In this document: piece after piece, positions 339-58,240 of the stretch
How the letters are laid out: the number at the start of each line of letters is the position of its first letter
Position numbering within the stretch: the stretch's first letter is position 1
Origin: Thiomicrorhabdus indica
GTDB taxonomy: Bacteria; Pseudomonadota; Gammaproteobacteria; Thiomicrospirales; Thiomicrospiraceae
Assembly (NCBI RefSeq): GCF_004293625.1
Contig: NZ_CP033040.1
Span: forward strand, 1,612,001-1,676,000
Length of the DNA stretch: 64,000 nt
Reading direction: 5' to 3'
The notes under the pieces: model-generated
Database searches by the model: none
What the model saw: only the letters and a program-made list of their open reading frames with translations
Told to the model about the DNA's origin: nothing
Position numbers and translations under genes: made by a program

Positions 339-348
339 ACCGGCCGGT
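339..348. repeat. ACCGGCCGGT palindrome
   Basis: First exact copy of the window-wide 10-bp palindrome. It lies in the short convergent gap between the small cysteine protein and ampD. Confidence 0.85.
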
Positions 349-397
349 AAACTTTTACAAAAATAGAGTAGAAGATAAAAAACCTTAAACAAACACC

Positions 398-955
398 TTA
401 ATTCGTTAAGTTTATTAGTCGCCATAACGCTGGCCAGTTGAAATAACGACCTGGATCAGTTTTTCGGCCAGGTGCAATGTCACTGTGACCGACAACTGCA
501 GCTTTTGGAATGTTTGGATAGCTTTTTTGCAAAGCTAAAATGATTTGCGCTAATTGCTGGTATTGAATCGCGGTGTAAGGCGTATCATCAGTTCCCTCAA
601 GTTCAATTCCAATCGAGAAGTCGTTACAACGCTCCTGCCCTTGATATGAAGAAATCCCAGCATGCCAAGCTCTCTTTTTAGGGGAAACAAATTGCGTTAC
701 CTCACCACCACGTTGAACAAAAAAATGTGCCGATACCCTTAGCCCTTCAATTTTTTTAAAGTATGGGTCTTCATCTGGGTCTAATTGATTCAAAAACAGC
801 TGATGTACATAGCCACCTCCAAATTGATTTGGCGGCAATGAAATACCATGCACCACGATCAGGTTTGGCTGAACACCGTCTGGACGGTCATCACAGTTTG
901 AACTTAAACAAACTTCAACCCCTTGAAGATAGTCACCCGACTCATCAAACCACAT
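398..955 (-). CDS. ampD: 1,6-anhydro-N-acetylmuramyl-L-alanine amidase AmpD
   Basis: This 185-residue cytosolic zinc amidase removes the peptide from anhydro-muropeptides during cell-wall recycling. The amidase_2 fold is recognisable. His36 (in VVHGISLPP), His157 (in VGHSDIAPGR) and Asp167 (in KTDPG) fit the three zinc ligands, and Lys165 the conserved catalytic-site lysine. GIELEGTDDTPY is the family's central signature. There is no signal peptide, as expected for AmpD rather than the periplasmic AmiD. It is divergent from nadC, a common gammaproteobacterial arrangement (ampD next to nadC). Length matches the family. Confidence 0.93.
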   Translation of the reverse strand: MWFDESGDYLQGVEVCLSSNCDDRPDGVQPNLIVVHGISLPPNQFGGGYVHQLFLNQLDPDEDPYFKKIEGLRVSAHFFVQRGGEVTQFVSPKKRAWHAGISSYQGQERCNDFSIGIELEGTDDTPYTAIQYQQLAQIILALQKSYPNIPKAAVVGHSDIAPGRKTDPGRYFNWPALWRLINLTN

Positions 956-1116
956 TTTCGATTCCTTTAAATTAAACGACCTATATTGTACCGCTTCCCT
1001 TTATAATTAAAATTTATTCAGTAAGTTTCATACCTGTCACTTATTGGCAGTCAGTCGTAGGCTTGCACCATCGTAAACAATACTTAATTTAACTTTTAGA
1101 AGTTCATCCTATCCCT

Positions 1117-1959
1117 ATGAAAAAAATCAACTATTTTGAGAATCTAAACCTAAACGTACGCCACGCACTTGAAGAAGATATTAAAACCGGTGACTTGACG
1201 GCAAGTTTAATCCCAAAGACAACCCAAGCAGAAGCAACGGTTATTAGCCGTGAAAAAGCCATTGTTTGTGGCCGTCCTTGGGTGGATGAAGTCTTCAAGC
1301 AAGTGGATTCATCGATTGAAATCAAATGGTTTAAGGCTGAGGGGGAACCTGTCGAAGCAGATGAAACTCTTTTCACTTTACAAGGCCCTGCACGCTCAAT
1401 CTTGACTGCCGAACGGAGCGCTCTCAATTTTTTACAGACATTAATGGCTACCGCAACCGTTGCCAATGATTATGCAAAACATCTAGAGGGTACACACACC
1501 AAACTTCTGGATACTCGGAAAACACTGCCAGGTTTGCGCTTAGCTCAGAAATATGCCGTGGCATGTGGAGGCGCACAAAACCATCGCATTGGACTTTATG
1601 ACGCGATTCTTATTAAAGAAAATCATATTTTTTCAGCTGGTTCGATTGCTAATGCTGTGTCTCAGGCAAAATCACTTTACCCTGAAATTACAGTCGAAGT
1701 TGAAACTGAAAACCTTGAGGAAGTTCAACTAGCATTAGACGCTGGAGCTGACATTATTATGTTGGATAATTTCACGCTTGAAATGATGGAAAAAGCCGTT
1801 AATCTAAGTCACGGCAAAGCCAAACTTGAAGTCTCTGGTAACGTCGAAATTCAGCATTTACCAGAGTTGGCAAAAACCGGTGTCGATTTTATTTCAACGG
1901 GTGCGATAACAAAACACTGCCGAGCCATTGATCTTTCGATGCGATTTAAAAGCAAGTAA
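1117..1959 (+). CDS. nadC: nicotinate-nucleotide diphosphorylase (quinolinate phosphoribosyltransferase)
   Basis: This 280-residue enzyme condenses quinolinate with PRPP, releasing CO2, to give nicotinate mononucleotide in de novo NAD synthesis. Signatures visible: EEDIKTGDLT near the N-terminus, DTRKTLPGLR with the substrate-binding arginines, the CGGAQNHRIGLYDAILIKENH active-site segment, and the ISTGAITKH phosphate-binding end. Length is normal. It is divergent from ampD with about 160 bp between them holding both promoters. The same window carries nadE, the last step of the pathway. Confidence 0.95.
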   Translation: MKKINYFENLNLNVRHALEEDIKTGDLTASLIPKTTQAEATVISREKAIVCGRPWVDEVFKQVDSSIEIKWFKAEGEPVEADETLFTLQGPARSILTAERSALNFLQTLMATATVANDYAKHLEGTHTKLLDTRKTLPGLRLAQKYAVACGGAQNHRIGLYDAILIKENHIFSAGSIANAVSQAKSLYPEITVEVETENLEEVQLALDAGADIIMLDNFTLEMMEKAVNLSHGKAKLEVSGNVEIQHLPELAKTGVDFISTGAITKHCRAIDLSMRFKSK

Positions 1960-2023
1960 CCCTTTTAAATTCAATTGATTAAATACATATTTAAACTAAA
2001 CCTTAAAAAATAAAGGACTTCCA

Positions 2024-4055: not shown

Positions 4056-4931
4056 CTATGATTCAATCCAAATCAAACTGGCCATACGGCCAGTTTTTCC
4101 ATCACCTTGATGACAGGCTTTACGATATGAATAAAACCGTTCATCGTCGTAGCTACACAAACCCGACAAGTAAACAGACTGAACACCACAGGCCTCTAGT
4201 TGCATTTGAGCAATCATAGGTAAATCTGCTAAATACTTACCTTCTTCAGAAAGACTTGGCTTAAATAGCGATTCATAATCTCTACACTCAGGGGCATCAA
4301 AACCCTTTCGGGTACAAGCACCCTCCTGGGCATCAACCCCCTTTCGGGTACAAGCACCGGCCGGTAAATGTTGAAACCTATCAAATACCTCCTGCCCAAC
4401 TTCAAAACGTTTTTGGCTGATAGCTGGTCCAATCCATGCCAAATAATCACCGGCCGGTAGGCTTTTAAGTGTTTTGGCTATAATTTGATTTTCCAGACCT
4501 TGCCAGCCTGCATGAATAGCACAGACTGTTTGCCCATGCGAATCACATAACAAGATTGGAATGCAATCCGCAGTCATCACCACACAAACAATACCTGATT
4601 TTTGTGTCCAACTGGCATCGGCAATCGGTGGTAAAACCGTATTTGTCGGCTGAGCGTCAATAGGCAAGCAAATGGATTTATCTGTGTGTTGTTGACTGAG
4701 CCAGAAAGGTTGAGAAGGCAACTGCAATACTTTTTGCAGCGCTTGTCTATTTTGTTCAACAGAATCAGAATGATCCCCAACATGAATCGCTAAATTAAAA
4801 AAATCATAATCTGAAGAAAATGAGTTTTGCGACTGGGAGTTTGGCGCAAAGCGTGTCGTCACACACGCTCTGATATTGGCAGGCATTGGCCAGTCTGGAA
4901 GGATTAAATTAGAAATATCTGAAATTTCCAT
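4056..4931 (-). CDS. purine nucleoside phosphorylase, YfiH/LACC1 family, with inserted repeat
   Basis: Multicopper-polyphenol-oxidase-fold protein (YfiH/PgeF type), known in the family for purine nucleoside cleavage and, in E. coli, peptidoglycan editing. Visible signatures: LSQQHTDK, VMTADCIPILLCDSHG, AIHAGWQGLE, and the C-terminal CSYDDERFYSYRK. Starts at the ATG at 4931; a TTG two codons earlier is possible. It follows rluD closely on the same strand, the same order as E. coli rluD-yfiH. Unusual: between HLPAG and the conserved YESLF region sits an insertion of two 12-residue repeats (GACTRKG...), beginning at an ACCGGCCGGT palindrome. Two other palindrome copies lie at 4449-4458 (in gene) and 4950-4959 (just upstream). 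Confidence 0.88.
   Translation of the reverse strand: MEISDISNLILPDWPMPANIRACVTTRFAPNSQSQNSFSSDYDFFNLAIHVGDHSDSVEQNRQALQKVLQLPSQPFWLSQQHTDKSICLPIDAQPTNTVLPPIADASWTQKSGIVCVVMTADCIPILLCDSHGQTVCAIHAGWQGLENQIIAKTLKSLPAGDYLAWIGPAISQKRFEVGQEVFDRFQHLPAGACTRKGVDAQEGACTRKGFDAPECRDYESLFKPSLSEEGKYLADLPMIAQMQLEACGVQSVYLSGLCSYDDERFYSYRKACHQGDGKTGRMASLIWIES
4292..4358 (-). repeat. 36-nt in-frame tandem repeat inside the yfiH-like gene
   Basis: Two copies (second incomplete) of a 36-nt unit starting at 4292 and 4328, differing at a few bases. Each encodes 12 residues of the form GACTRKG-V/F-DA-Q/P-E. The block abuts the ACCGGCCGGT palindrome at 4356-4365 and contains CCC-TTTC-GGG mini-hairpins. It reads as an in-frame insertion into the conserved enzyme. 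Confidence 0.75.
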
Positions 4932-4974
4932 AAGCAACTCTTAAACGCTACCGGCCGGTATCTTTGGTTGAGGT

Positions 4975-6033
4975 CTAATCAGGAATATCCTCATCCGTGA
5001 CATACTCAACCTGAATATCATTAGCGTATTCATAGTCATAATCGCTGTAGCCATTGAAAGAGGATTGGTACATCTCGAGGTCTTCTCTAAGAATATCGAC
5101 TAACTCCAACATATCGTCCGGCATTGGAGCGCGCCATTTCATGGTTTTTCCAGTTGATGGATGCGTAAAACTCAAAGCACCGGCATGCAATGCCTGACGA
5201 TTAAATTGACGTAAAAAATCGACAAATTCAGGATCCATTTTTTCAGGAATACGAAATTTCTTGCCATACACCGGATCACCTACCAACGGAAACCCTTGGT
5301 AAGTCATATGTACACGAATCTGATGTGTTCGCCCTGTTTCCAATTTCACGCGAATGCGACTGTGAGTTCGGAAGTGCTCCAATACGCGAAAATGACTGAC
5401 CGCAGGTTTGCCACCCATCGCACGCACTGCCATTTTCTTACGATCTTTCGGGTCACGTCCAATCGGTTTATCAACGGTTCCACCCTGTTTCACAATACCG
5501 ACTACCACCGCATCATAAATTCGTTCTACGGCATGACGTTGAAGTTGTTCCACCAAATGGGTTTGCGCTGGAACGGTTTTCGCCACAACCATTAAGCCAG
5601 AGGTATCTTTATCCAAACGATGAACAATCCCGGCTCTTGGCACTGCTCGTAAATTAGGGTAGTGAAACAAAAGCCCGTTGAGTAGTGTGCCATCTGGATT
5701 GCCAGCCCCTGGATGCACAACTAAACCGGCCGGTTTATTAATGACTAAAATCGAATCATCTTCATAAACAATGTTTAAATCAATATCCTGCGCTTCAGCA
5801 CGCTGGTCATCTTGCAACTCAATTTTTAACTCAACCGTTTCTCCACCTAAAACCGTATAGCGAGGTTTCTTCTGAATCTCTCCATCCAAAGTCAACATCC
5901 CGTCTTTTATTGCCTGCTGGATTCGATTACGCGAATAGTCTGGAAATGCATTCGACAGGACAACATCCAACCGTTGATTCATCGCACCGAGAGGAATAAT
6001 GGCTTGCAGAGTTTCAATATGGCTTGACGACAA
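4975..6033 (-). CDS. rluD: 23S rRNA pseudouridine synthase, RluD type
   Basis: A 352-residue RluA/RluD-family enzyme. It has an N-terminal S4 RNA-binding domain (residues 20-80, RLDVVLSNAFPDYSRNRIQQ) and a catalytic domain with the hallmark HRLDKDTSGLMVVAK containing the catalytic aspartate, then LETGRTHQIRVH. RluD modifies helix 69 of 23S rRNA. The start appears to be a TTG at 6033 preceded at good spacing by AAGGA. The C-terminal tail is longer and more acidic than usual. It is divergent from bamD and upstream of yfiH on the same strand, the same gene set as in E. coli. An ACCGGCCGGT copy at 5725-5734 encodes part of NKPAGLVV. Confidence 0.92.
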   Translation of the reverse strand: MSSSHIETLQAIIPLGAMNQRLDVVLSNAFPDYSRNRIQQAIKDGMLTLDGEIQKKPRYTVLGGETVELKIELQDDQRAEAQDIDLNIVYEDDSILVINKPAGLVVHPGAGNPDGTLLNGLLFHYPNLRAVPRAGIVHRLDKDTSGLMVVAKTVPAQTHLVEQLQRHAVERIYDAVVVGIVKQGGTVDKPIGRDPKDRKKMAVRAMGGKPAVSHFRVLEHFRTHSRIRVKLETGRTHQIRVHMTYQGFPLVGDPVYGKKFRIPEKMDPEFVDFLRQFNRQALHAGALSFTHPSTGKTMKWRAPMPDDMLELVDILREDLEMYQSSFNGYSDYDYEYANDIQVEYVTDEDIPD

Positions 6034-7070: not shown

Positions 7071-7108
7071 AAAAAGGATTGTAACCGGCCGGTTACAATC
7101 CTTTTTTT
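7071..7108. terminator. bidirectional terminator built on the ACCGGCCGGT palindrome
   Basis: A perfect 26-nt palindrome (7076-7101) has ACCGGCCGGT at its centre and is flanked by A runs on the left and seven Ts on the right. It can form an intrinsic terminator stem for both bamD (plus) and nadE (minus). Confidence 0.85.
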
Positions 7109-13435: not shown

Positions 13436-13445
13436 ACCGGCCGGT
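13436..13445. repeat. ACCGGCCGGT palindrome
   Basis: Exact copy in the gap between two lipoprotein genes. No flanking T run is present, so it is probably not a terminator. Confidence 0.85.
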
Positions 13446-40355: not shown

Positions 40356-40368
40356 TTTTCTATACGTC

Positions 40369-40945: not shown

Positions 40946-40978
40946 TCCCAAATTTTTGGTTGATGCTGGCTTTCACCA

Positions 40979-41106: not shown

Positions 41107-41173
41107 GCCTAGAGTGAAGGCCTGTTTTTTAGGTCGTAGCTCGAGGCTGTCAATGTTGATTTTATTGTTAGGC
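41107..41173 (-). repeat. attC site with damaged core at the argG-tail junction
   Basis: GTTAGGC (41167-41173) is intact; the opposite core is GCCTAGA instead of GCCTAAC. Inner arms AGCTCGAGGCTG surround a short spacer. The damaged end abuts argG copy A exactly. Confidence 0.6.
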
Positions 41174-41657: not shown

Positions 41658-41664
41658 TATTATT

Positions 41665-41734
41665 GCCTAACGACCAAGTTCACCGGCGGCAATGGAGCGT
41701 AGCGGTTGCCGTCCGGTGTAGTGCCTTGTTATGT
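41665..41734 (-). repeat. attC site
   Basis: 70 bp bounded by GCCTAAC (41665-41671) and GTTATGT (41728-41734), with arms CACCGGCGGCAA and GGTTGCCGTCCGGTG forming a GC-rich stem. Confidence 0.8.
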
Positions 41735-42305: not shown

Positions 42306-42317
42306 ACTTTCCTTAAA

Positions 42318-42395
42318 GCATAACGCCGTGCTAAGGGGCCGTAGCTGCGGAGGTCCCTGTGAGCGAAGCGAACGAACTTGAGCACCTTGTTATAG
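42318..42395 (-). repeat. attC site
   Basis: GCATAAC (42318-42324) to GTTATAG (42389-42395) with arms GTGCTAAGGGG and AACTTGAGCACC, and GAGCGAAGCGAACGA between. Confidence 0.7.
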
Positions 42396-42710
42396 AAATC
42401 AAATTCCACACAAGGCCCGATAAATAGAGGAAAAATGCTGGAAACCATACCGCCTGCACTTTCCCTGTTTCAAACCGCCCCATACCAACCGGCACGCTAC
42501 CGCCAGGCCCGGCGCGCCAACCGATGGCACCAGGATTGATGTGACCCAGCGGACGCAACCACTGGACCACAACCGAAGCACTCAAGACCGAAACCTCCCA
42601 AAGCCTCTGCCACTACCCAAGCCTTCAACCGCACCGAGAACACTGGCACTATTTCGCAGCTGCCACATCACCTCGCTATGGCAACCATAAAACCACAGGC
42701 TGCCCGATTT
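42396..42710 (-). other. GC-rich cassette without a clear gene
   Basis: A cassette between two attC sites with much higher GC than its neighbours. One minus-strand frame (TTG start near 42585) gives GHINPGAIGWRAGPGG and ends in a hydrophobic VWFPAFFLYLSGLVWNLI helix, but runs through the attC. I cannot support it as a gene. It may be non-coding or a decayed cassette. Confidence 0.5.
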
Positions 42711-42809
42711 ACATAACGCCTTAATTAACAGGCAAAATTTGGTTGGCTAAAATACGAGCGAAGCGAGATAGCCAGCCGTATTTTGTCCTTGTTGATTAAC
42801 TTGTTATAT
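42711..42809 (-). repeat. attC site
   Basis: ACATAAC (42711-42717) to GTTATAT (42803-42809). Inner arms GTTGGCTAAAATACG and CGTATTTTGTCCTTG flank a GAGCGAAGCGAGATAGCCAG centre. Confidence 0.75.
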
Positions 42810-42813
42810 GCCC

Positions 42814-43032
42814 CTACAACCCAGCTAGAATCATTTCTTTAATTTTATGAGCTTTTACGAAATGATCTAATTTATGAGTTTGAATCCACCAAATGGCGGC
42901 TTCCATGAGCAACTCAGGATTATCATTTTTATTTGCGAAAAATGCGTAAAATGACAAGCCAACATTATCACCTTTAGCGGATATTTTTTGATCACAAACC
43001 TCTATGATTTTAGCTCTTAACTCTTCTTTCAT
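42814..43032 (-). CDS. small conserved cassette protein (possibly DUF6500)
   Basis: 72 residues, starting MKEELRAKIIEVCDQKI and containing NVGLSFYAFFANKNDNPELL and AAIWWIQTHKLDHFVKAHKI. It looks like a compact helical protein seen in cassettes of marine bacteria; the family name is a recollection. Function unknown. Confidence 0.68.
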   Translation of the reverse strand: MKEELRAKIIEVCDQKISAKGDNVGLSFYAFFANKNDNPELLMEAAIWWIQTHKLDHFVKAHKIKEMILAGL

Positions 43033-43072
43033 TATTTACTCGTTCTATTAATATTCACAAAACTCTAAAGGC

Positions 43073-43169
43073 ATATAACGCCCGGCTAACCGAGCAAATT
43101 TTGTTGGCGGCTTTTTTTGGTACAAAAAAGGTGACAATAAAATTTGTCCGGTGGAGCCGCTTGTTAACA
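43073..43169 (-). repeat. attC site
   Basis: ATATAAC (43073-43079) to GTTAACA (43163-43169), with CGGCTAACCGAGCAAATTTTG and AATTTGTCCGGTGGAGCCGC-type arms. Confidence 0.7.
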
Positions 43170-43703
43170 GTTTTTTGATGCACAAACATACCAATTTGTT
43201 GTATACCAGTCTGTTGTTTCTTCGCCATCGTAATCTCGGTTCATAAAATTAACCAGCTGTACATCAATGCTTTTTGGTACGTCGAATGGAATACCTTCTA
43301 GGCCTATAGTTTGAGGAATACGTTTTTGCCATTCATTATCTTTTTCGTAAAAACCTTCACGATAGGATTCATCGAAAAATATAATGATGCTTGAACCGTG
43401 AAGATCAGGCCAAGTAAGTATTAGGTCAATATTAACCGCTAAGAACTCCGAAGGTTTTGCGGAATGTAGATTTTCATACGCCTTAAACATTGCAGCAATA
43501 GCCCTGTTTTGCCACTCTTTCGTAGTTGTCGGTGGATCAACTAAACGGTCAAGAACAGGAATCTTATAATCAATATATCTTTCATCGCTGTATTCTAAAG
43601 GAAAGTACCCTTCAAACTGACCCGCCCATGCATCAAGTGCTTTTAAGCGCCTATGTGAACCTCGAACCTTTTGTTTTGGCCGGTTAAAACTAATTTGTCG
43701 CAT
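43164..43703 (-). CDS. hypothetical cassette protein (possibly DUF3916)
   Basis: 179 residues. N-terminal KVRGSHRRLKALDAWAGQFEGYFP, then KIPVLDRLVDPPTT, LILTWPDLHGSSIIIFFDESY and a beta-rich C-terminus. This layout reminds me of DUF3916 proteins. No active site is evident. Cytosolic. Confidence 0.62.
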   Translation of the reverse strand: MRQISFNRPKQKVRGSHRRLKALDAWAGQFEGYFPLEYSDERYIDYKIPVLDRLVDPPTTTKEWQNRAIAAMFKAYENLHSAKPSEFLAVNIDLILTWPDLHGSSIIIFFDESYREGFYEKDNEWQKRIPQTIGLEGIPFDVPKSIDVQLVNFMNRDYDGEETTDWYTTNWYVCASKNC

Positions 43704-43713
43704 AATTTTCTAC

Positions 43714-43781
43714 TGTTAACGCCCGGCTCAGCGGGCAGTTTTTGCGCAGCAAAACTGATCCGCTGCAGCTGTTTGTTAAAT
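43714..43781 (-). repeat. attC site
   Basis: TGTTAAC (43714-43720) to GTTAAAT (43775-43781) with arms CCCGGCTCAGCGGGCAG and CTGATCCGCTGCAGC around a TTTTGCGCAGCAAAA hairpin. Confidence 0.7.
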
Positions 43782-43783
43782 TG

Positions 43784-44500
43784 CTAACTCAGTTCTTCAA
43801 TATCACCAGATAAGAACTGATCAAACTGGATATCTTTTATGCTCTGTAGTTTTTCTTGATATTTCTTTGCGTCGAGAAACCAGAAGCTTCTTCCACAAGG
43901 AGTGCCTGAACGGCTTGGTTTTGTGTTGAACTTTGTCTCTAAGAAATATTTTTCACCGAGTCGATAGCCTGTAGCACTAACTACTCGCTTGTCATTTTCC
44001 TTAGCAATTTCGTCCAATGTTTCCTGAGTTGCTACCTTTTGTAGTCTTGAGCTTGTTTCCCAATTAACAGGCCAAGCCTTACCGGCCTGATCTACTACTT
44101 CAACTTTATATATCTCAGTGATGGCTATACCATTTGGAAGTGAAATACCAATTTCCGTTTTTTCACCTTCACCAAGTTTTATTTTTTGTTTCGGCTCTTG
44201 ATGCCAAAGCCAGCGTCCTTTCTTGTGGTGCCAAGACTTGATAAGCCTTTGCTTCCAATCTCTTGGCGTAATGAAGTATTTAATATTATCAATTGAAACT
44301 GGTCTTCTACCGATGGAGCGTACAGTTAATTTGTGCAACGTCCGACTTGGCGAGTCAAAACCAAAAGATGACTCACACAGCAGTTTGGCCTTATCCAAAC
44401 CGTGTTGCCTAAATCTCAGCCAAAGCCCTAATAGGCCAGCAACGGTGCCTATTGTCCCGGTCACCGCACCCCATATTGCGAGCACTTCGGTTTGACTCAT
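43784..44500 (-). CDS. single-span membrane cassette protein of unknown function
   Basis: 238 residues: one membrane helix near the N-terminus (IWGAVTGTIGTVAGLLGLWL) followed by a cytosolic basic domain with beta-strands (LHKLTVRSIGRRPVSIDNIK, FITPRDWK, EKTEIGISLPNGIAITEIYK). The overall form resembles small integron-cassette proteins with an N-terminal anchor. Function unknown. Confidence 0.62.
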   Translation of the reverse strand: MSQTEVLAIWGAVTGTIGTVAGLLGLWLRFRQHGLDKAKLLCESSFGFDSPSRTLHKLTVRSIGRRPVSIDNIKYFITPRDWKQRLIKSWHHKKGRWLWHQEPKQKIKLGEGEKTEIGISLPNGIAITEIYKVEVVDQAGKAWPVNWETSSRLQKVATQETLDEIAKENDKRVVSATGYRLGEKYFLETKFNTKPSRSGTPCGRSFWFLDAKKYQEKLQSIKDIQFDQFLSGDIEELS

Positions 44501-44513
44501 AACTTTCCTTGCA

Positions 44514-44608
44514 ATTTAACGGAGTGGCGATAACCTGCGTGGCTTCGCTGAAAAAAAATTGAAAATTTTTTGTAGGTGAAATACGTCAGGTTGATTGTTT
44601 TGTTATGT
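44514..44608 (-). repeat. attC site
   Basis: ATTTAAC (44514-44520) to GTTATGT (44602-44608); inner arms GATAACCTGCGTGG and ACGTCAGGTTGATTG. It belongs to the same subfamily as 37957-38041 and 39374-39462. Confidence 0.78.
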
Positions 44609-44610
44609 GC

Positions 44611-45534
44611 TTATGGCAGCAAATTTTCATATTTTTTTGGTAATAAAGCAAACTCACCCCAACCTAAGTCCTTAAAACACAAACCTGTGCCATTTTCACT
44701 GACTGTTCCGTATGCAACTAGGATACGCCCAACAGAGTTATCAGTAATGCCGTGACTTTTTTGATGCCTATCTTTTAATTTTAGACAAAAATCTTGGACG
44801 CCATTTTGGTTATTTTCTAAATACGTCATCCTGATGTTATCCGGCCTCTTATGCTCACCTAGATGCGTTGTAGTAACAATTTTTCCGTAATATAGTTTGG
44901 GGGAGTCATCTTCCTCACTGATGTCTTTAACATTGTGGAGTAAATCTAATAATCGAATTGCATGCTTTTGATTTGAGAAGAAGAAGTATTTATATAGATT
45001 TTCATCAAATTTTCGGCATATTCCAGCAACAGTGGTTATTTTACTTGGAAGCTTAAATGACTCACCATTATGGCAAGATATCGGGGTGTTTGAAATTGGG
45101 CCAGCGACATCTTCTACTGGAGTTTCATCATACTCTCCAGCCGGTTCTTCAGGAAGCTCCGGTTTCTCCGTGATAAAGCTGTTTACAATTACTAAATTTT
45201 CATCATCGATTGCTTTTTGGGCTTCTTCATATGAGTTGTATCGCTTTCCTTCTGGCTTCTCTGACCTCAAGTCACAATCAACTTCTTTATAAGCAGGGAG
45301 GTGGCCAAAATAAGCCTCTCTACCATTTGAAAAGTGGTCTTTGTCTTTTGGGACTCGATTTAGGTTCGTGAAGCAAACGGGGCAAAATATATTGCCCTCC
45401 ATTTCTTTCTGATACTCGGAAGGTTCTTTTTTGAGAGCGTCAGCCTTTAATTTCTTTGGGTTGCCTTTTTCGAAGCTCCAGCCCTTAAGGTACAGAGCAT
45501 ACCTAATTCTTCTCTTTGATTCGTTCGCACTCAC
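44611..45534 (-). CDS. large cassette protein with an N-terminal zinc-finger-like motif
   Basis: 307 residues. The N-terminal part has IFCPVCFTNLNRVPKDKDHF and FGHLPAYKEVDCD, a CPxC...H...C pattern that may bind zinc. An acidic linker follows (residues 100-150), then a domain with TVAGICRKFDENLYKYFFFS, HAIRLLDLLHNVKDI and CLKLKDRHQKSHGI. Similar proteins exist in other bacteria without known function, as far as I recall. The longest cassette gene here. Confidence 0.6.
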   Translation of the reverse strand: MSANESKRRIRYALYLKGWSFEKGNPKKLKADALKKEPSEYQKEMEGNIFCPVCFTNLNRVPKDKDHFSNGREAYFGHLPAYKEVDCDLRSEKPEGKRYNSYEEAQKAIDDENLVIVNSFITEKPELPEEPAGEYDETPVEDVAGPISNTPISCHNGESFKLPSKITTVAGICRKFDENLYKYFFFSNQKHAIRLLDLLHNVKDISEEDDSPKLYYGKIVTTTHLGEHKRPDNIRMTYLENNQNGVQDFCLKLKDRHQKSHGITDNSVGRILVAYGTVSENGTGLCFKDLGWGEFALLPKKYENLLP

Positions 45535-45558
45535 TTTGAATATGCCTCCATTTTTGGC

Positions 45559-45642
45559 ACATAACGTTTGGGTTCAGCCGACGCTATTTAGCGTAGCCGA
45601 AGGCGGAGCGAAATAGCGGTCGGCTGGAACCCATTGTTATGC
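45559..45642 (-). repeat. attC site
   Basis: ACATAAC (45559-45565) to GTTATGC (45636-45642); long arms TTTGGGTTCAGCCGACGCTA and GCGGTCGGCTGGAACCC make a strong stem. The stop codon of the next gene lies in its right core. Confidence 0.85.
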
Positions 45643-46083
45643 TGTAATTTGTTCAATGGTCACCTTGCCAGCATTTGAATAAACACCAAACTCTATAAAA
45701 TAGGCGTACTGATATTCTAGTTCTCTCATGTAGCCTCGCAATTTTCTCCGATCGATGTTTCGATCTACACTGCTACTTTCTTTCTTGATTTCAATGACTA
45801 AGAAATTATTATTCGTCGATCTTTTGTGTGCAATGATGTCTGGAAAGACAGTTTTGGCATCTTCATCTTCTTGATCAGGATAGAGCTCCATGTGCGCCAA
45901 TCTCTTGGGTTCTATTCCATCTCGATTGTATTCCACATCCACTTCATACTCTGGCAATTCCGCTTGAAGATGAAATGCGAGCTTTGCAGAGATAGATCTT
46001 TCGTTAGCATTAACCTCCATAAGATAGATGTCTTTCTCTATCAATGTAGCAATCGCGTTATCTAATGCTGTGATGGTACTCAT
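45637..46083 (-). CDS. PD-(D/E)XK nuclease-like protein, first cassette
   Basis: 148 residues. FPDIIAHKRSTNNNFLVIEIKKES gives the D-(X)n-E-X-K spacing of the PD-(D/E)XK nuclease superfamily. RDGIEPKRLAHMELYPDQ lies before it and a helical C-terminus follows. It is the cassette closest to the integrase, normally the most recently inserted and best expressed. Whether it cleaves DNA is unknown. Confidence 0.6.
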   Translation of the reverse strand: MSTITALDNAIATLIEKDIYLMEVNANERSISAKLAFHLQAELPEYEVDVEYNRDGIEPKRLAHMELYPDQEDEDAKTVFPDIIAHKRSTNNNFLVIEIKKESSSVDRNIDRRKLRGYMRELEYQYAYFIEFGVYSNAGKVTIEQITA

Positions 46084-46235
46084 AGTGCGGATTTTTCATT
46101 TTCAGGCATATTTGCCTGATTATTTAATATTACTATTGTTTTCAGGCAGATTTGCTCTGGTATTAATACAAACCTGTTAAATAGACGTTTATCTTGTATT
46201 ATGAAGCTAATCATGCTCTAAAAACAAGTAGTTTT
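46084..46235. promoter_or_regulatory. integron platform region between the first cassette and intI
   Basis: 152 bp that should hold attI and the divergent promoters. Two similar dyads, CAGGCATATTTGCCTG (46103-46118) and CAGGCAGATTTGCTCTG (46143-46159), lie 40 bp apart. I see no clear attI core (RYYYAAC) and no LexA box. Confidence 0.5.
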
Positions 46236-47153
46236 ATGAATACTACCGCAAGTAAAAGTCTATTACTAGATGAAATGCGTATTACTTTACGTCGTGAGGC
46301 CATGTTGCAAGATTCGTCAGGAAAGGTAGAACAATTTTTAACTTATTTGGCGGTGGATCAGAATGTTGCTCCATCTACACAAAATCAAGCTTTAAATGCG
46401 TTGAGTTTTTGTTATACAAAGGTATTAAACGCACCTTTTATCAATGTGAAGGCCAGTCGTTCTCGCAAAGAACCTAGAATTCCTGTGGTGTTGACCAAAG
46501 AGGAAGTTGCTGAAATTTTAACTGTAATGGAAGGTTCGGCTGGATTGATTGCAAAGTTACTTTATGCAGGCGGTTTGCGAATTAGCGAAGCGATTCGCTT
46601 ACGGGTGCAGGATATTGATTTTGGGTTTAAGCAAATCACCGTGCGTGATGGCAAAGGTAAAAAGGATCGTGTGACTCCCTTAGCCAACAACCTTATTCCA
46701 CTTTTAGAAACTCAGTTACAAAAGGTGAAAACCCTTCATCAACAGGATTTAAACCAAGGGTATGGCTCCGTTTATTTGCCTTATGCATTGGCTAAAAAGT
46801 ACCCGAATGCCGAGTTTGAATTGGGTTGGCAATATGTCTTTCCAAGTAATCGTTTAGCCGAAGATCCAAGATCTGGAAAAATCCGCCGACAGCACAGCGA
46901 TCAATCCGTTATCAATAAAGCGATCAAAAAAGCCGTTAAACAATGCCGTATTAACAAAAAAGTAAGTGCACACACGTTTCGTCATTCTTTTATGAAATAC
47001 ATCCATGTATTTCACCCTTTGGGTCAGACTTTGTCTGTTCAAATTTGATCCAATCAAATTTGTGCCACCCACCTGCTACAAACAGGTACGGATATCCGCA
47101 CGATTCAAGCACTACTCGGGCAAGGCGTTATCAGTCCGTTAGATCTTTTATAA
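46236..47153 (+). pseudogene. intI: inactivated integron integrase
   Basis: A tyrosine recombinase with the integron-specific insert (YLPYALAKKYPNAEFELGWQ). The catalytic Arg lies in GLRISEAIRLRVQD and HTFRHSF is present. Three lesions: the N-terminal core-binding region is short by roughly 25 residues (the usual HYSxxTExxYxxWIRxFIxFHxxRHP region is missing); a 72-bp insertion at 46992-47063 brings an in-frame TGA; and after the resumed match ATHLLQTGTDIRTIQALLG (from 47064) the sequence diverges, so the last His/Trp and the nucleophilic Tyr are lost. Probable original start is ATG 46236. It is oriented away from the cassettes, as in normal integrons. Confidence 0.88.
46992..47063 (+). repeat. 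72-bp three-hairpin insertion in intI
   Basis: In-frame length (24 codons) inserted between HSF and ATHLL of the integrase. It has three consecutive dyads: TGAAATACAT/ATGTATTTCA, CAGAC/GTCTG, and CAAATTTGAT/ATCAAATTTG. No clear target duplication is visible. Confidence 0.82.
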
Positions 47154-47184
47154 AGACCGGCAATTTATTTCCAGAAACAAAAAA

Positions 47185-47215
47185 GGCGCTGAAGTTTTCT
47201 CTCCAGTGCCTTATT
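47185..47215 (-). terminator. terminator-like hairpin of argG-tail copy C
   Basis: GGCGCTGAAG/CTCCAGTGCC imperfect stem after an A run, parallel to the terminators of copies A and native argG. A CCGGCTTTCGCCGG dyad follows at about 47235. Confidence 0.55.
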
Positions 47216-47261
47216 GATAACGATTCAGAGATTCCGGCTTTCGCCGGAATGACACAGTATT

Positions 47262-47352
47262 TCGATTATTTGCGGCATTTTTTGGGTGTTATGCGTCCTG
47301 ATAAAGCCTTCGGCGTCTTTGTGGTCGTAAGCGCCGCTGTTGTCTCCAAAAA
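47262..47352 (-). pseudogene. diverged argG 3' fragment (copy C)
   Basis: The minus strand reads [16 protein letters not shown] then RTHNTQKMPQ, matching native Arg[17 protein letters not shown], then lacking the seven residues KLNSLRL before RT. Flanked downstream by a terminator and the GCCGGAATGACAC block also present by native argG. It comes from a different argG allele or is decayed. Confidence 0.82.
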
Positions 47353-47385
47353 TTTAGCGGTTTTATGCAGATTATTCGTCTATTC

Positions 47386-47655
47386 CTACTTCAAATCGCG
47401 ATAAAAGTTTTCATGACTGCCCTGCGATAACATCAGTAAACATGGGATGTCATCCATTATTCGATAGGCTAACAGGGTTAATTGATTTTGCATTTTGAAC
47501 TTATAAACACGAACACCCACCAAGTCTCCTTTCTTTAACTCACCCAATTCTGGCTGCTTAATCAGTGCTTTGATGGCCTTGTCTAACTCGCGTTTTTGGT
47601 TTGGGTGAAGCTTTTTGACAGCTTTTTCAAAACGCCTGGTTTGCTGTATTTTCAT
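47386..47655 (-). CDS. RelE/ParE-superfamily toxin
   Basis: 89 residues with the RelE/ParE fold pattern: RRFEKAVKKLHPNQKRELDKAI, LKKGDLVGVRVYKFKMQNQ, LLAYRIMDD and the closing GSHENFYRDLK. Such toxins cleave mRNA on the ribosome or poison gyrase; which cannot be told. It is 12 bp downstream of its antitoxin gene. Located between the argG copies. Confidence 0.83.
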   Translation of the reverse strand: MKIQQTRRFEKAVKKLHPNQKRELDKAIKALIKQPELGELKKGDLVGVRVYKFKMQNQLTLLAYRIMDDIPCLLMLSQGSHENFYRDLK

Positions 47656-47667
47656 CGTTCGTGCACT

Positions 47668-47892
47668 TTACGAATCAAAGGTGTATTCGGTCAGTTGTTC
47701 AGGATCTTTACTTTCCTCTATTGCCAAGAGGGTTTCCTGAATAAAACTAAACGGCAAATCCGGGTTTTCTTCCACTAATTTTCCAATACGGCTCCAATAC
47801 TCAATTTGCTTTGGAACAGAACGATGTGTCACCGCAGCATATAGCTTCGCTTCTTTGGCAAGGCTGTCGGATAATTTTATTGCAACAGACAT
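47668..47892 (-). CDS. ParD-like antitoxin
   Basis: 74 residues, starting MSVAIKLSDSLAKEAKLYAAVTHRSVPKQIEYWSRIG, the ribbon-helix-helix-like ParD-like antitoxin pattern. The C-terminal acidic tail would wrap the toxin. First gene of the TA operon, which it probably autoregulates. Confidence 0.8.
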   Translation of the reverse strand: MSVAIKLSDSLAKEAKLYAAVTHRSVPKQIEYWSRIGKLVEENPDLPFSFIQETLLAIEESKDPEQLTEYTFDS

Positions 47893-47989
47893 ATTTTCAT
47901 ACCTCGAAAAAATCTAAGATACCATTATCAAACCAAAAGAAACCTTTTGCAACCTTTGAAAAGTTATTGAATAAAATGACGCAAACAAA

Positions 47990-48027
47990 AAAAGCGCTGG
48001 AGATTTACATCTTCAGCGCTTTTTTAT
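47990..48027 (-). terminator. argG terminator
   Basis: AGCGCTGGAG/CTTCAGCGCT stem with flanking A and T runs. It is followed by a CCGGCTTGCGCCGG dyad at 48050-48063. Confidence 0.8.
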
Positions 48028-48080
48028 TTCCCAGGTTTGTGAGAGATTCCGGCTTGCGCCGGAATGACACAATCAATGGG

Positions 48081-49292
48081 TTATTTTCCGCGTTTTTTCG
48101 CTGCCGTGCGTAAACGTAGTGAGTTCAGTTTAATGAATCCTTCTGCGTCTTTATGATTGTATGCACCACCATCATCTTCAAAGGTTGCAATCGCTTCATC
48201 AAACAAGCTGTTTTCTGAAGTACGACCCACACAAACCACATTACCTTTATAAAGCTTAATGCGAACATTTCCTGAAACATTTTCTTGCGACTTGTCGATC
48301 ATTGCTTGCAGCATTTCACGCTCAGGAGCGAACCAGAAACCGTTGTAAACCATTTCGGCATATTTTGGCATTAGCTCATCTTTCAAGTGCGCAGCATTAC
48401 GGTCAAGCGTAATGGATTCAATCGCTCGGTGTGCTTTTAGCATAATGGTACCGGCCGGTGTTTCATAACAACCACGCGCTTTCATACCGACAAAACGGTT
48501 TTCAACCAAATCATCACGCCCGATTCCGTTTTCACCACCAACTTTGTTCAAATATTCCATTACAGTTGCTGGGCTCATTGCTTCGCCATTGATTGCAACA
48601 ATGTCACCTTTTTCAAAACCAATATCCAGATAAGTTGGTTCATCTGGAGCGTTTTCTGGTGAAACCGTCCATAACCACATGTCTTCTTCCGGCTCATTTG
48701 CTGGATCCTCAATAATGCCGCCTTCATAAGAGATATGAAGCAGGTTGGCATCCATTGAGTAAGGTGACTTTTTACCTTTTTTCTTCTCAATCGAAATATT
48801 GTGCTCTTCCGCATACGCCATTAGTTTTTCACGAGACATTAAATCCCACTCACGCCATGGTGCAATAACCTTCACGTCCGGCATTAGCGCGTAAGCGTTC
48901 ATTTCAAAACGCACTTGGTCATTCCCTTTACCAGTGGCACCGTGAGAAATTGCATCGGCGCCCGTTTCTTGCGCAATCTCAACCAAACGCTTTGAAATCA
49001 ACGGACGAGCGATTGACGTTCCTAGACGATATTCACCTTCATAGATGGCATTGGCACGCATCATTGGGAAAACAAAATCACGAGCAAACTCTTCACGCAA
49101 ATCTTCAATGTAAATTTCTTTAATGCCCATTGCTTTTGCTTTTGCACGCGCTGGTTCAATCTCTTCACCTTGACCGATATCGGCCGTAAAGGTTACGACT
49201 TCGCAGTTGTACTCTTCCTGCAACCACTTAGCGATAATTGAAGTATCTAAACCACCTGAATAGGCTAAAACGACTTTTTTCACATCTGACAT
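48081..49292 (-). CDS. argG: argininosuccinate synthase
   Basis: A 403-residue enzyme that joins citrulline and aspartate using ATP. Seen: the N-terminal pyrophosphatase loop [30 protein letters not shown], and the full C-terminus ending [10 protein letters not shown] palindrome copy at 48450-48459 encodes TPAGT. Its 3' end is the parent of two partial copies in the integron. It is divergent from psd. Confidence 0.97.
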
Positions 49293-50668: not shown

Positions 50669-50712
50669 ACCGGCCGGTATCTTTTCTTTTGTACCATTTG
50701 TTACCGGCCGGT
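50669..50712. repeat. paired ACCGGCCGGT palindromes
   Basis: Exact copies at 50669-50678 and 50703-50712, 34 bp apart, in the 85-bp gap between glnB and the yqaA-like gene. Confidence 0.85.
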
Positions 50713-55153: not shown

Positions 55154-55163
55154 ACCGGCCGGT
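55154..55163. repeat. ACCGGCCGGT palindrome
   Basis: Exact copy about 45 bp upstream of the Rossmann oxidoreductase gene, in its promoter region. Confidence 0.85.
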
Positions 55164-55208: not shown

Positions 55209-55976
55209 ATGAAAAACACCGTCGTTGTGATTGGAATGGGTGAGCTTGGCAGCGTGTTTGCACGTGGTTTTTTACGCTTGGGGCATCCAGTCCAAGCAAT
55301 TACTCGAGCGATGGATATCAACTCCATGGCAAGTGAAATTCCAAACCCTGAAGCCATTCTTGTATCAGTAGGAGAAGCAGATATTGCACAAACTTTGCAA
55401 TCCATTCCAGCTAATTGGCAAGACAACTTAATTCTCTTGCAGAATGAATTGTTACCTCGTGATTGGCAAGCAGCAAATTTGCCCACACCAACCGTTATTT
55501 CGGTCTGGTTTGAAAAGAAAAAAGGCATGGATTCAAAAGTGGTCATGCCATCACCAATTTTCGGTAAACATGCAAAACTGGTGTTTAATGCCCTAGCACA
55601 AGTCGATTTACCCAGCTTTATTGTTGACTCCGAAGAAGAGCTGCTTTTTGAATTGGTTAGAAAAAACTTATACATTCTGACAACGAATATCGCAGGACTT
55701 GAAACAGGTGGAACCGTTTCACAATTAGCCGAAAACCATGCAGATGTAATGAAAGCCGTTGCCGACGATGTGTTAGATATTCAAGACTTTTTAACCGGCC
55801 GGTCAAATAATCGTGAAGAGTTAATGCAAGGTTTGTTGGAAGCGTTTAATGGTGATCCAGAACATGGCTGTATGGGGCGCTCTGCTCCAGCTAGACTCAA
55901 GCGTGCGCTTGCTATTGCCGACAAAGCAAATCTTCAAGTGTCCAAGCTAAGACAAATTGCTCAAGACAAACTTTAA
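55209..55976 (+). CDS. NAD(P)-binding Rossmann-fold protein
   Basis: 255 residues starting KNTVVVIGMGELGSVFARGF, a dinucleotide-binding GxGxxG with basic context. The middle is ketopantoate-reductase-like in feel, and a helical C-terminus follows. Exact substrate unknown. The palindrome at 55794-55803 encodes LTGRS in a loop. Ribosome binding site AAGGGAA lies before the ATG. Confidence 0.65.
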   Translation: MKNTVVVIGMGELGSVFARGFLRLGHPVQAITRAMDINSMASEIPNPEAILVSVGEADIAQTLQSIPANWQDNLILLQNELLPRDWQAANLPTPTVISVWFEKKKGMDSKVVMPSPIFGKHAKLVFNALAQVDLPSFIVDSEEELLFELVRKNLYILTTNIAGLETGGTVSQLAENHADVMKAVADDVLDIQDFLTGRSNNREELMQGLLEAFNGDPEHGCMGRSAPARLKRALAIADKANLQVSKLRQIAQDKL

Positions 55977-56336: not shown

Positions 56337-56352
56337 GTTTGGAATGGGGCGT

Positions 56353-56380
56353 ATTATACAAGTAACGCTTATGCCTGCAA
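56353..56380 (-). promoter_or_regulatory. sigma70 promoter of the tRNA-Lys operon
   Basis: -35 TTGCAG (56375-56380), 16-bp spacer, -10 TATAAT (56353-56358), then a GC-rich discriminator ACGCCCC just before the tRNA, as in stringently controlled stable-RNA promoters. Confidence 0.82.
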
Positions 56381-56549
56381 GGTTTTTTTTACATTTTTTT
56401 GAAAAAAATAAGTGTTTAATTTACAGGCTTTTTAAAGCTTTTCAAAAATCAATAAGTTACAAAATATTACAAAGGTTTGCGCTATTCAGGAGAGAGCGCT
56501 GGAGTGTGATTCATAAGCTTTGCAAGCATCACTGAATCTAAAACAATAC

Positions 56550-57251
56550 TTAGTTAGTTTGATAAATTGTTGGATCAGACACACCAGCGTCTGCAAATCC
56601 TTGCTTACGGAGACGACACGAATCACAAATACCGCACGCTCTGCCCTCTCCATCCGCCTGATAACAAGAAGTCGTCAGAGAATAATCCACGCCTAATGCA
56701 TTCCCTTGTTGAATTATCTGCCCTTTTGTCAAATGCATTAGCGGTGCTTTAACAGAAAGTTTATGACCTTCAACCCCTGCTTTCGTTGCCAAATTCGCCA
56801 TGGCTTCAAAAGATGATATAAATTCTGGTCGGCAATCTGGATAGCCAGAATAATCGACCGCATTCACACCTATAAAAATATCGTTGGCTTCAATCACCTC
56901 AGCAAGCGCAAGAGCATAAGATAAAAACACGGTGTTCCTAGCTGGCACATAAGTCACAGGAATAGCATTTTCTTCCACGCCACCAGTCGGGACATCAATA
57001 GAATCATCTGTCAAAGCAGAACCACCGATATTGCGCATATCAACCTGCATCACACGGTGCGTTTTTGCGCCAAATTGTTTAGCCACATTTTCAGCGGCCT
57101 TTAACTCTGAACGATGACGTTGACCATAATCAAAACTCATGGTGTGACATTCATACCCCTCTGATTGCGCTATTGCAAGCACGGTTGTTGAATCGAGCCC
57201 ACCAGATAGAAGGACTACAGCTTTTGGAAGAGTTTGAGAGTTATCAGCCAT
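56550..57251 (-). CDS. queC: 7-cyano-7-deazaguanine synthase
   Basis: 233 residues. ATP-pyrophosphatase loop [17 protein letters not shown]-terminal zinc-binding cysteines in [21 protein letters not shown]. It makes preQ0 for queuosine. It follows cpoB as in the Pseudomonas tol-pal-queC cluster; queE is not in between. Confidence 0.95.
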
Positions 57252-57301
57252 CTTAATATCGGTTGTTTTATTTTGAGTAATTTATAAGAAACGTTTAATA
57301 A

Positions 57302-58240
57302 TTATTGAAGCTTATCTAATCGTGATTGGGCATTTTCAGCTGCTCGGCTTCCCGCATAATTTTTAATAATATCGCGGTAGAGTTTTTTTGCCGCATCCAT
57401 TTGATTCAAGTTTGTTAATGCATCAGCCAAGCGCAATTTAGCATCACTGCCCTTACTGGCATCTGGATAGAATTTAACCACTTGTTCAAAAGACTGTTTA
57501 GCCATTTCATTATCTTTAAGGATATATTGCCCCTCTCCAGCCCAATACCACGCATTCGGTGCAAGCGAACTTTCAGGATGTTTTTGCGCAAAATCGATAA
57601 AAGCTGCAATGGATTCTTTGTATTTTGATTTTCGCATTAATTCAAAGGCCGACTGATACGCAGCATCTTCAGATTCTGTTGCCAATCGAGTTTTTACCGG
57701 TCCAGTTAAAGACGCGACAGTTTTAGTTGATCCAGTTGGAGCACTCTGTGTTTTTGTACCAACGCTAGCATTCTGTCCCACTGGCACAGATGTTTTTTGT
57801 TGCGCAACCAGATTCTGATCGTTATTTAAGCCATTTGAAAGGTTACCGGCCGGTAAAGATGCATTAGAACTTTGAGCTTGTACCAACAATTTCAACATAG
57901 ATTCCATCCGCTCAAGCTTTTCAGCTTGAGCACTTTGTTGTGCTTCAAGTTGATTCAAACGCTGTTCCAAATCGTTATTTGATACTGCACTACTTTGCTG
58001 AGGAAATTTGTGCTGAATTAAATCCAAGCGATTCTGAACCGATTGTAATTCCCGCTTTTGCTGATTTAACTGCTGGCTCAACTTGAGTGTAACCGGATTA
58101 TTCGCCATGCGCTCCAAACGTTCGAGTCTCTGTTCTACCGTTAAAGCAAATGCTGAACTTGAGAAAACACTTGTGATGACCGCTATCGTCATCGACTGCT
58201 TTAGTGTTTTATTAAAGATTGAATTGTGATTACTGCTCAT
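57302..58240 (-). CDS. cpoB: Tol-Pal accessory protein CpoB (YbgF)
   Basis: 312 residues. Signal peptide ending SSAFALTVEQ, an N-terminal trimeric coiled coil (RLERLERMANNP; EQRLNQLEAQQSAQAEKLERM), a Ser/Gly linker with a palindrome copy (57845-57854, LPAG), then three TPRs (YQSAFELMRKSKYKESIAAF...). It coordinates PBP1B and Tol action at division. It lies 10 bp after pal. Confidence 0.92.
   Translation of the reverse strand: MSSNHNSIFNKTLKQSMTIAVITSVFSSSAFALTVEQRLERLERMANNPVTLKLSQQLNQQKRELQSVQNRLDLIQHKFPQQSSAVSNNDLEQRLNQLEAQQSAQAEKLERMESMLKLLVQAQSSNASLPAGNLSNGLNNDQNLVAQQKTSVPVGQNASVGTKTQSAPTGSTKTVASLTGPVKTRLATESEDAAYQSAFELMRKSKYKESIAAFIDFAQKHPESSLAPNAWYWAGEGQYILKDNEMAKQSFEQVVKFYPDASKGSDAKLRLADALTNLNQMDAAKKLYRDIIKNYAGSRAAENAQSRLDKLQ

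Follow-up and report, generated by a model that had tools for sequence, protein, structure and literature searches.

The stretch of DNA analysed here, hereafter the window, comprises 64,000 nucleotides from the genome of Thiomicrorhabdus indica, a marine sulphur oxidiser, in which the palindromic 10-mer ACCGGCCGGT recurs both within open reading frames (ORFs) and in the gaps between them (Table 1). All 23 starts listed in an earlier note on this DNA are exact copies, and not one copy appeared in 100 dinucleotide-preserving shuffles of the window. The five near-matches that the note had given are also genuine, each with one mismatch, but a sixth at 51356 had been overlooked. Extension of the word to TACCGGCCGGTA, likewise noticed earlier, is seen in 10 of the 23 copies, and the GC content, put at ~43%, is in fact 40.8%.

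Table 1. Copies of ACCGGCCGGT in the window, and the stretch that is free of them
Feature	Position	Context
ACCGGCCGGT	339..348	intergenic, between convergent ORFs
ACCGGCCGGT	4356..4365	within ORF 4056-4937 (PgeF family)
ACCGGCCGGT	4449..4458	within ORF 4056-4937 (PgeF family)
ACCGGCCGGT	4950..4959	intergenic
ACCGGCCGGT	5725..5734	within ORF 4975-6033; aligned place in two relatives reads AACCCGTCGGTT and AACCGGTCGGTT
ACCGGCCGGT	7084..7093	centre of a 38-bp perfect dyad, convergent ORFs on either side, terminator-like
ACCGGCCGGT	13436..13445	intergenic
ACCGGCCGGT	15964..15973	within ORF 15172-19233
ACCGGCCGGT	16322..16331	within ORF 15172-19233
ACCGGCCGGT	20123..20132	in an 18-bp perfect dyad (longer if mismatches are allowed), between convergent ORFs
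ACCGGCCGGT	22335..22344	within ORF 21933-22760
ACCGGCCGGT	23794..23803	intergenic
ACCGGCCGGT	25527..25536	within ORF 23968-25881
ACCGGCCGGT	28397..28406	intergenic, directly beyond the stop of minus-strand ORF 28415-29782 (cysS)
ACCGGCCGGT	31671..31680	within ORF 31152-31907
ACCGGCCGGT	31955..31964	intergenic, between convergent ORFs
ACCGGCCGGT	37247..37256	start of ORF 36810-37262 (GFA family), also in overlapping ORF 37177-37521; last before the site-free stretch
ACCGGCCGGT	48450..48459	within ORF 48081-49292 (by eye argininosuccinate synthase-like); first after the site-free stretch
ACCGGCCGGT pair, arm 1	50669..50678	34 bp start to start; hairpin with arm 2, downstream of ORF 50306-50644
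ACCGGCCGGT pair, arm 2	50703..50712	folds with arm 1 at 50669
ACCGGCCGGT	55154..55163	intergenic
ACCGGCCGGT	55794..55803	within ORF 55209-55976
ACCGGCCGGT	57845..57854	within ORF 57302-58240
Site-free stretch, 11.2 kb	37257..48449	much looks integron-like

The over-representation of ACCGGCCGGT is confirmed beyond the window. The complete T. indica genome of 2,829,883 bp (2.83 Mb) holds 1025 copies, a density of ~0.36 per kb, and the other 31 Thiomicrorhabdus genomes hold only 0-15 each. In 464 kb of the genome, 174 copies were observed where an order-3 Markov model predicts 0.70, in keeping with the earlier claim that chance would give far fewer; the runner-up by observed/expected, among palindromic 10-mers with at least five copies, is enriched 3.3-fold. 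Nor are many unrelated palindromes enriched to the same degree. The 962 kb that were read (a sample with a 2 kb overlap read twice) contain 345 copies, 2 of them counted twice, while the second most frequent of all 1024 palindromic 10-mers has 23 copies and no other palindromic 10-mer with 8 G/C exceeds 2. One-base variants of the word are altered mostly at its outer ends, positions 1 and 10 accounting for 57 of the 93, and its counts per 20 kb are close to Poisson, with a mean of 7.4 and a variance of 7.0 over 40 stretches.

Where do the copies lie? The word occurs genome-wide in genes, gaps and terminators, and, as had been argued before, neither codon use nor a single regulon explains it. 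Intergenic density is four-fold that in ORFs (1.02 vs 0.25 per kb), and ORFs contain 180 of the 319 sites. Among the gaps, ACCGGCCGGT is densest in convergent ones (2.24 per kb) and scarcest in divergent ones (0.73 per kb); the convergent-gap excess is absent from some other dialects of the family (genome G020, and G046 with G051). Close pairs, 18-34 bp apart, number 16 vs 1.7 expected among 284 intervals of this genome, and all 16 are intergenic; in a slightly larger set from the same genome, the arms fold on one another in 19 of 19 pairs, giving predicted terminator-like hairpins. The species consensus, aaa.tttACCGGCCGGTaaa.ttt, spans ~24 bp with A/T tracts on both sides.

The site-free stretch carries an integrase gene (46194-47048, + strand), small ORFs and repeats from about 37979 to 45641, and a large part of it resembles an integron, that is, acquired DNA without the word. 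ACCGGCCGGT is also missing from an integrase-bearing island, the second acquired region examined. Could the word itself be phage-borne? Matches in IMG/VR to 16-mers of two dialects amount to 5 and 3 stretches, and those examined have one copy of the dialect word apiece; the search thus turned up no word-rich phage, and we reject this origin. A viral scan found no viral relatives of a window protein.

Related words occur across the family. Of 62 family genomes, 32 carry the sister word MCAGGCCTGK, at 129-927 copies each, and two non-palindromic relatives, AACAGGCCGG and CCAGGYTGGG, are abundant in 2 and 3 genomes, respectively. One of these four words reaches at least 100 copies in 38 of the 62 genomes, and no genome has two at that level; for ACCGGCCGGT, the tally covers the 32 members of Thiomicrorhabdus but none of the 30 genomes from elsewhere in the family. 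None of the four is abundant in the other 24 genomes, 10 of which lie outside the genus, where ACCGGCCGGT was not counted. All four words share A-rich flanks and a CCAGG/CCGG core, the non-palindromic ones having the A-rich flank on one side only (the comparison for CCAGGYTGG used 12, 18 and 11 copies from three genomes). CCAGGTTGGG is the dialect word assigned to a genome taken to be that of Hydrogenovibrio marinus. A tree of 9 genomes places the CCAGGCCTGG word on both sides of a deep split and groups the CCAGGYTGGG genomes in a single clade; the ancestral family word was probably ACCAGGCCTGGT, which does not exceed 5 copies in any of 365 genomes sampled from the class outside the family. 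De novo searches in 7 of the 24 genomes without known words (120 kb of G003; 100 kb of G027; 80 kb of G038; 60 kb each of G024 and G026; 20 kb each of G032 and G037) gave no convincing new dispersed word. Most top 10-mers of G027 are confined to one or two of its five stretches and are probably repetitive genes.

Sequence comparison also bears on how copies arise. In aligned genes, ACCGGCCGGT sites differ from the relatives by substitution, not insertion, and we therefore reject mobile insertion as their source; alignments at intergenic sites contain gaps and say nothing about insertion. Conserved positions, which the earlier note had raised, proved rare: of 18 sister sites, 2 coincide in position, each in an alignment that contains gaps.

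The T. indica genome encodes a full-length ComEC (equivalog, 931 aa) and a PilT/PilU-family ATPase, and a PF07963 search listed prepilin-type genes. Short motifs for ComM, DprA, ComEA, PilQ and others, run over the third of the genome that was read, gave only a PilT-like match. ComEC is found in 36 of 38 genomes with a word and in 20 of 24 without and so does not discriminate between them, and the same is true of a conserved pilin cluster adjacent to miaB, which is present in G000, G043, G045 and G046 (with a word) and in G003 (without). The FimT/GspH family (PF12019) was detected in just 3 of 62 family genomes, none bearing a known word, and a cluster of small pilins resembles type II secretion pseudopilins (GspG-like, by eye). 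The PF12019 and PF07963 searches and the pilin clusters yielded no candidate receptor for the word. In the open-licence literature, we found no paper joining Thiomicrorhabdus with natural transformation and, among the matches listed from titles and abstracts, no description of these words in this family; the available text of a paper on Hydrogenovibrio genomes (PMC6501319) does not mention competence or transformation.

What is the function of such a word? We think it rather probable, by analogy with known systems, that ACCGGCCGGT represents a third uptake-sequence lineage, one with palindromic dialects. Together with its A/T-tract flanks, it would be the T. indica version of a DNA self-recognition word common to the family, and that word would most likely be an uptake sequence. 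A putative surface DNA receptor on the type IV pilus/ComEC route would favour word-bearing DNA, such that conspecific DNA would be taken up and recombined more often; point mutation would make the copies, and a biased-transformation drive would spread and maintain them. In some lineages, a shift in receptor specificity would leave old sites to decay while new ones built up elsewhere. An uptake role is consistent with the strong over-representation of one word, with the one dominant dialect per genome in those 38 genomes, and with both the excess of copies between genes and their pairing as terminator stems. To our knowledge, no palindromic uptake sequence has been reported, and palindromic dialects are unexpected, a symmetric word being identical on both strands.

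It is slightly better than an even guess that these free-living sulphur-oxidising chemoautotrophs form a third family with self-DNA uptake, of independent origin, in which a palindromic ancestral word switched apparently three times. The apparent switches are to ACCGGCCGGT and to the two non-palindromic words. If this is true, the family offers a natural series for seeing receptor and word change together, and the dialects in 38 genomes, set against 24 relatives where none of the four is abundant, provide a direct means of seeking the receptor by co-variation. According to the available text of a 2025 paper (PMC12616744), discrimination of DNA by short words at the binding step of transformation is known from Neisseriaceae and Pasteurellaceae only; a further lineage living away from animal hosts would help to decide whether such words reflect selection for self-DNA or are a by-product of receptor bias.

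The main rival to an uptake sequence is the site of an abundant chromosomal protein (a nucleoid organiser, a condensin loader or a recombination or repair factor) whose specificity has drifted and whose site spacing is selected, with no uptake involved. We consider this unlikely but worth serious attention. The ~24-bp footprint with its A/T tracts and the near-Poisson counts would suit such a protein, and absence from acquired DNA would suit any slowly accumulating site. Harder to accommodate, for a cytoplasmic protein that occupies its sites, are the switch to non-palindromic words and the replacement of roughly a thousand sites inside a single genus; we know of no cytoplasmic protein with such a history. 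Furthermore, the 24 of 62 family genomes without any of the four words, 7 of them sampled for others, argue against an essential architectural role. Might the word simply be a terminator stem that spread as a good hairpin? The convergent-gap density and the strong predicted hairpins of paired copies point that way, but the many copies in ORFs largely refute a pure terminator, close pairs make up just 16 of 284 intervals, the exact letters are kept rather than pairing alone, and other GC-rich palindromes are not enriched; we regard this account as very improbable.

The earlier note saw the closest analogue in cyanobacterial HIP1; on that view, DNA methylation with a methyl-directed repair bias would create and maintain the word. 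The word is indeed palindromic, GC-rich and uniquely over-represented, its one-base variants are end-biased as are those of HIP1, and its relatives carry alternate words, as with the alternate HIPs (Elhai 2015, PMC4390886, available text). However, searches of the complete genome (E <= 0.001) for m5C methylases (PF00145) and N6/N4 methylases (PF01555), the families expected for the CCGGCCGG core, gave no match, although they were positive in 10 and 11 of the 14 genomes used as controls, and according to the same text every genome with HIP sequences has a matching predicted methylase. Sister words that are non-palindromic with an extended, one-sided A-rich flank are not predicted by a symmetric methylase site either. 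On the absence of these two families, the ones searched, we reject methylation as the main reading and judge it improbable. Recognition by a different kind of modification or defence machinery, such as phosphorothioation at the GGCC core, seems more doubtful still. Systems of the dnd type do prefer ccGGCCgg-like contexts, but over-representation and terminator pairing would be left unexplained, as would the CCAGGYTGGG dialects, from which GGCC has been lost. An oriented recombination or segregation signal of the Chi or KOPS type, to which a short, frequent, species-specific and GC-rich word might belong, is equally far-fetched: two dialects are perfect palindromes, for which orientation is impossible, and the asymmetric dialects agree with the GC-skew leading strand at only 70 of 123 sites in sampled stretches of four genomes, the most biased of which gives 12 of 17, with whole-genome strand counts that are similar (143 to 188 at the most uneven). 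Palindromy and this weak strand bias lead us to reject it.

Among known systems, Chi and KOPS resemble these words in being short, frequent, species-specific chromosomal words. They are oriented and asymmetric, whereas the words here are palindromic or show little strand bias. The uptake signal sequence (USS) of Pasteurellaceae shares gammaproteobacterial hosts with the words described here and, like them, has A/T-rich flanks around its core, although it is not palindromic. It numbers ~1300 copies in H. influenzae, where terminators often consist of two opposed copies (PMC5217627, in part), and its cores, AAGTGCGGT and ACAAGCGGT, are unrelated to those here (PMC12616744). For the DNA uptake sequence (DUS) of Neisseriaceae, the available text of Frye et al. 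2013 (PMC3630211) describes a 10-12 nt word in thousands of copies, with family-specific dialects that track the core phylogeny, a preference for permissive intergenic placement and terminator hairpins from inverted pairs, all of which recall the present family. Unlike the DUS, the words here have another sequence, with main dialects that are perfect palindromes, no counterpart of ComP was found, and the ~0.36 copies per kb are sparser than king3DUS, with 2787 and 3603 copies in two genomes (PMC3630211). Cyanobacterial HIP1 and the alternate HIPs are likewise highly iterated GC-rich palindromes with other words in some relatives, but they accompany a predicted cognate methylase (PMC4390886, in part), of which the two families tested are absent here, and the dialects of this family can be non-palindromic, as in 5 genomes. 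Taken as an analogy, a DNA uptake sequence appears closer to ACCGGCCGGT than HIP1 does.

The earlier note's 23 exact copies of the 10-bp palindrome ACCGGCCGGT, hereafter the own word, are all present in the window, and they fall, as it had said, in genes and gaps alike, with 12 inside ORFs of at least 100 aa and 11 between ORFs. The genome that holds the window (G000; one contig, 2,829,883 bp) carries 1025 copies. Under an order-3 Markov model, 464 kb of sequence contain 174 copies against 0.70 expected, whereas the runner-up among the other palindromic 10-mers with at least five copies reaches only 3.3-fold. Among all 1024 palindromic 10-mers in 962 kb, the own word has 345 copies (2 kb were read twice, so that 2 sites are counted twice) and the next has 23; among palindromes, the excess is confined to the own word. 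One-base variants are rare in this genome and lie mostly at outer positions: of 93, 38 differ at position 1 and 19 at position 10; positions 3, 4, 5 and 6 account for 1, 5, 0 and 0.

The sites are concentrated outside genes. A simple ORF caller applied to 864 kb of G000 places 180 of the 319 sites within ORFs, a density of 0.25 per kb, and the remaining 139 outside them, at 1.02 per kb (p = 7e-32); the five other dialect sets, i.e. different words in relatives, are likewise denser outside ORFs. By gap type, density is 2.24 per kb in convergent, 1.15 in tandem and 0.73 in divergent (promoter) gaps; no such convergent excess was found in the relatives G020 or G046 with G051. Within ORFs, one reading frame takes 123 of the 180 sites. 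Over 40 stretches of 20 kb, the number of sites per stretch is close to a Poisson distribution (mean 7.4, variance 7.0), and close pairs, 18–34 bp apart, make up 16 of 284 intervals versus 1.7 expected. All 16 are intergenic, and in a slightly larger pair set an arm-to-arm fold is predicted for 19 of 19, with TTTT within 12 nt in 12.

The acquired DNA examined, in site-poor regions chosen by their emptiness and not as a systematic island set, lacks the own word. The larger gap tabulated below contains an integrative element free of it (L114, G000:C1:2040001-2060000), with a phage integrase, an IS3-type transposase, a HipA-like protein and a 1684-aa HerA/TrwB-like protein; another interval, G000 1816338-1867695, has just 2 sites and a TraG-like gene. 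The cassette-like ORFs of the integron lie mostly on the minus strand and include a GNAT acetyltransferase, DUF3916 and unknowns. Elsewhere in G000, a partial 16S rRNA match (G000:C1:2185063-2185969, in L115; 822 bits over model positions 9-873, plus a short extension) is possibly a truncated rRNA gene; two full-length copies are also present.

Site-free gaps of the genome and the features in or beside them
Feature	Position	Strand	Remarks
Site-free gap, 11.2 kb	window 37257-48449		holds integron integrase, small ORFs, repeats
GFA-family ORF at gap edge	window 36810-37262		own-word site at its start
Chromosomal integron	window 37979-47048		integrase adjoining run of small cassette-like ORFs
attC-like repeats	window ~37979 to 45641		by eye
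Integron integrase	window 46194-47048	+	TIGR02249
Site-free gap, 26.7 kb	G000 2033670-2060404

A search with the NAD synthase of the window gave 17 loci; the top ten, at 71–72% identity, comprise nine from Thiomicrorhabdus and one from a 'Thiotrichales bacterium', and the remaining seven have 49–53%. Thiomicrorhabdus are sulphur-oxidising Gammaproteobacteria, and our family set comprises 62 genomes, 32 of them in this genus. The own word has 0–15 copies per genome in the 31 other genus members. Five congeners were sampled at 80 kb apiece: G020, G021 and G025 carry another palindrome, CCAGGCCTGG, within ACCAGGCCTGGT; G023 carries the shortened CAGGCCTG; and G003 yielded no word of this kind. 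The sister word MCAGGCCTGK reaches 129–927 copies in 32 of the 62 genomes, which belong to four genera, while the rest have no more than 36 each; its reversed control has at most 9 in any. Two more words, both non-palindromic, emerged from genomes poor in the sister word: CCAGGYTGGG (331 copies in G045, 371 in G046, 403 in G051; at most 15 in others) and AACAGGCCGG (659 in G022, 383 in G004; at most 29 in others). No genome has two of the four words at 100 or more, and 24 of the 62 have none at that level, 10 of these outside the genus, ACCGGCCGGT being counted for this tally in the 32 genus genomes and not in the 30 other family members. In a class sample of 370 genomes, 365 lie outside the family, and ACCAGGCCTGGT exceeds 5 copies in none of them. 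FimT/GspH (PF12019) matches occur in only three family genomes, G011, G032 and G038 (L121-L123), all without the four words. Five of the 15 own-word copies in the relative G026 lie within 21 kb (G026:C11:227951-249135; L173, L174), with four packed into 9.5 kb, and may mark DNA received from a lineage that uses the own dialect; in G020, a repeat containing GTTTCAATCCAC (stretches L021-L024; 38 counts) is probably a CRISPR array.

The dialects share a design in which an A-rich flank is retained outside the core, two-sided in palindromic dialects and one-sided in asymmetric ones. Aligning copies from sampled stretches gave, per dialect, the consensus aaa.tttACCGGCCGGTaaa.ttt in G000, a.tTgACCAGGCCTGGTcAa.t in G020, aaactcAaCAGGCCGGgt in G022 and AAAATCTrCCAGGyTGGGg in G045, G046 and G051 (only 12, 18 and 11 copies aligned); the flank is weak in G000, at 0.1–0.3 bits per position, whereas the last three have a strong one (1–2 bits). 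In 78 segments aligned with relatives, 68 kb in all, there are 18 sister sites and 27 own sites, some of the own sites being counted once for each of several relatives. Only 2 of the sister sites coincide with an own site, both in gapped alignments, and own sites within genes differ from relatives through substitutions (e.g. at window 5725, AACCCGTCGGTT against AACCGGCCGGTT); therefore, old sites appear to have decayed and new ones to have arisen mostly elsewhere. In a midpoint-rooted tree of MiaB plus PhoH from 9 genomes, in which G022 could not be placed, the CCAGGCCTGG word is on both sides of a deep split and the CCAGGYTGGG group forms a single clade, so that CCAGGCCTGG is likely the ancestral word. 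Adjoining miaB-phoH in L154, L155, L156, L158 and L162 is a cluster of several prepilin-type proteins (about 180–550 aa), their number varying among genomes.

What, then, reads these words? A sequence-specific reader whose preference shifts from species to species would account for them. The earlier note had pointed to HIP1, with a possible tie to DNA methylation; the end-biased variants in G000 are also compatible with a highly iterated palindrome (HIP), and a cognate methylase of the two families searched did not materialize, a profile search of the genome giving no match to PF00145 (m5C methylases) or PF01555 (N6/N4 methylases). An orientation signal is unlikely, given the palindromy and given that the asymmetric dialects favour one strand only slightly (70 of 123).

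We favour, with moderate confidence and by analogy, a DNA uptake sequence, and the own word may work like one, because its features match those of DUS and, for the terminators, USS (the uptake sequences of Neisseriaceae and Pasteurellaceae). G000 encodes ComEC (931 aa, TIGR00361) together with an ATPase of the PilT/PilU family, and 12 prepilin-type matches were obtained at E ≤ 0.5, not all of which clear the cut-off. Against uptake, ComEC is found in 20 of the 24 genomes without a word versus 36 of the 38 with one; no receptor was found among PF12019 matches, prepilin-type matches or miaB-adjacent pilins; and we know of no palindromic uptake word. The main rival is that a protein bound to the chromosome reads the word, and absence from acquired DNA would be expected of any slowly accumulating site.

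Among the matches listed from titles and abstracts of the open-licence literature, we found no report of these words in this family, nor one on competence, which also counts against uptake. For the favoured uptake reading, the comparison is with DUS, for which dialects of an iterated word, a permissive placement between genes and opposed pairs acting as terminators are described (PMC3630211), and with USS, where opposed pairs likewise serve as terminators (PMC5217627). Dialects of an iterated word, intergenic placement and terminator-like opposed pairs are all found here as well, the first two and the pairs recalling DUS and the pairs also USS.
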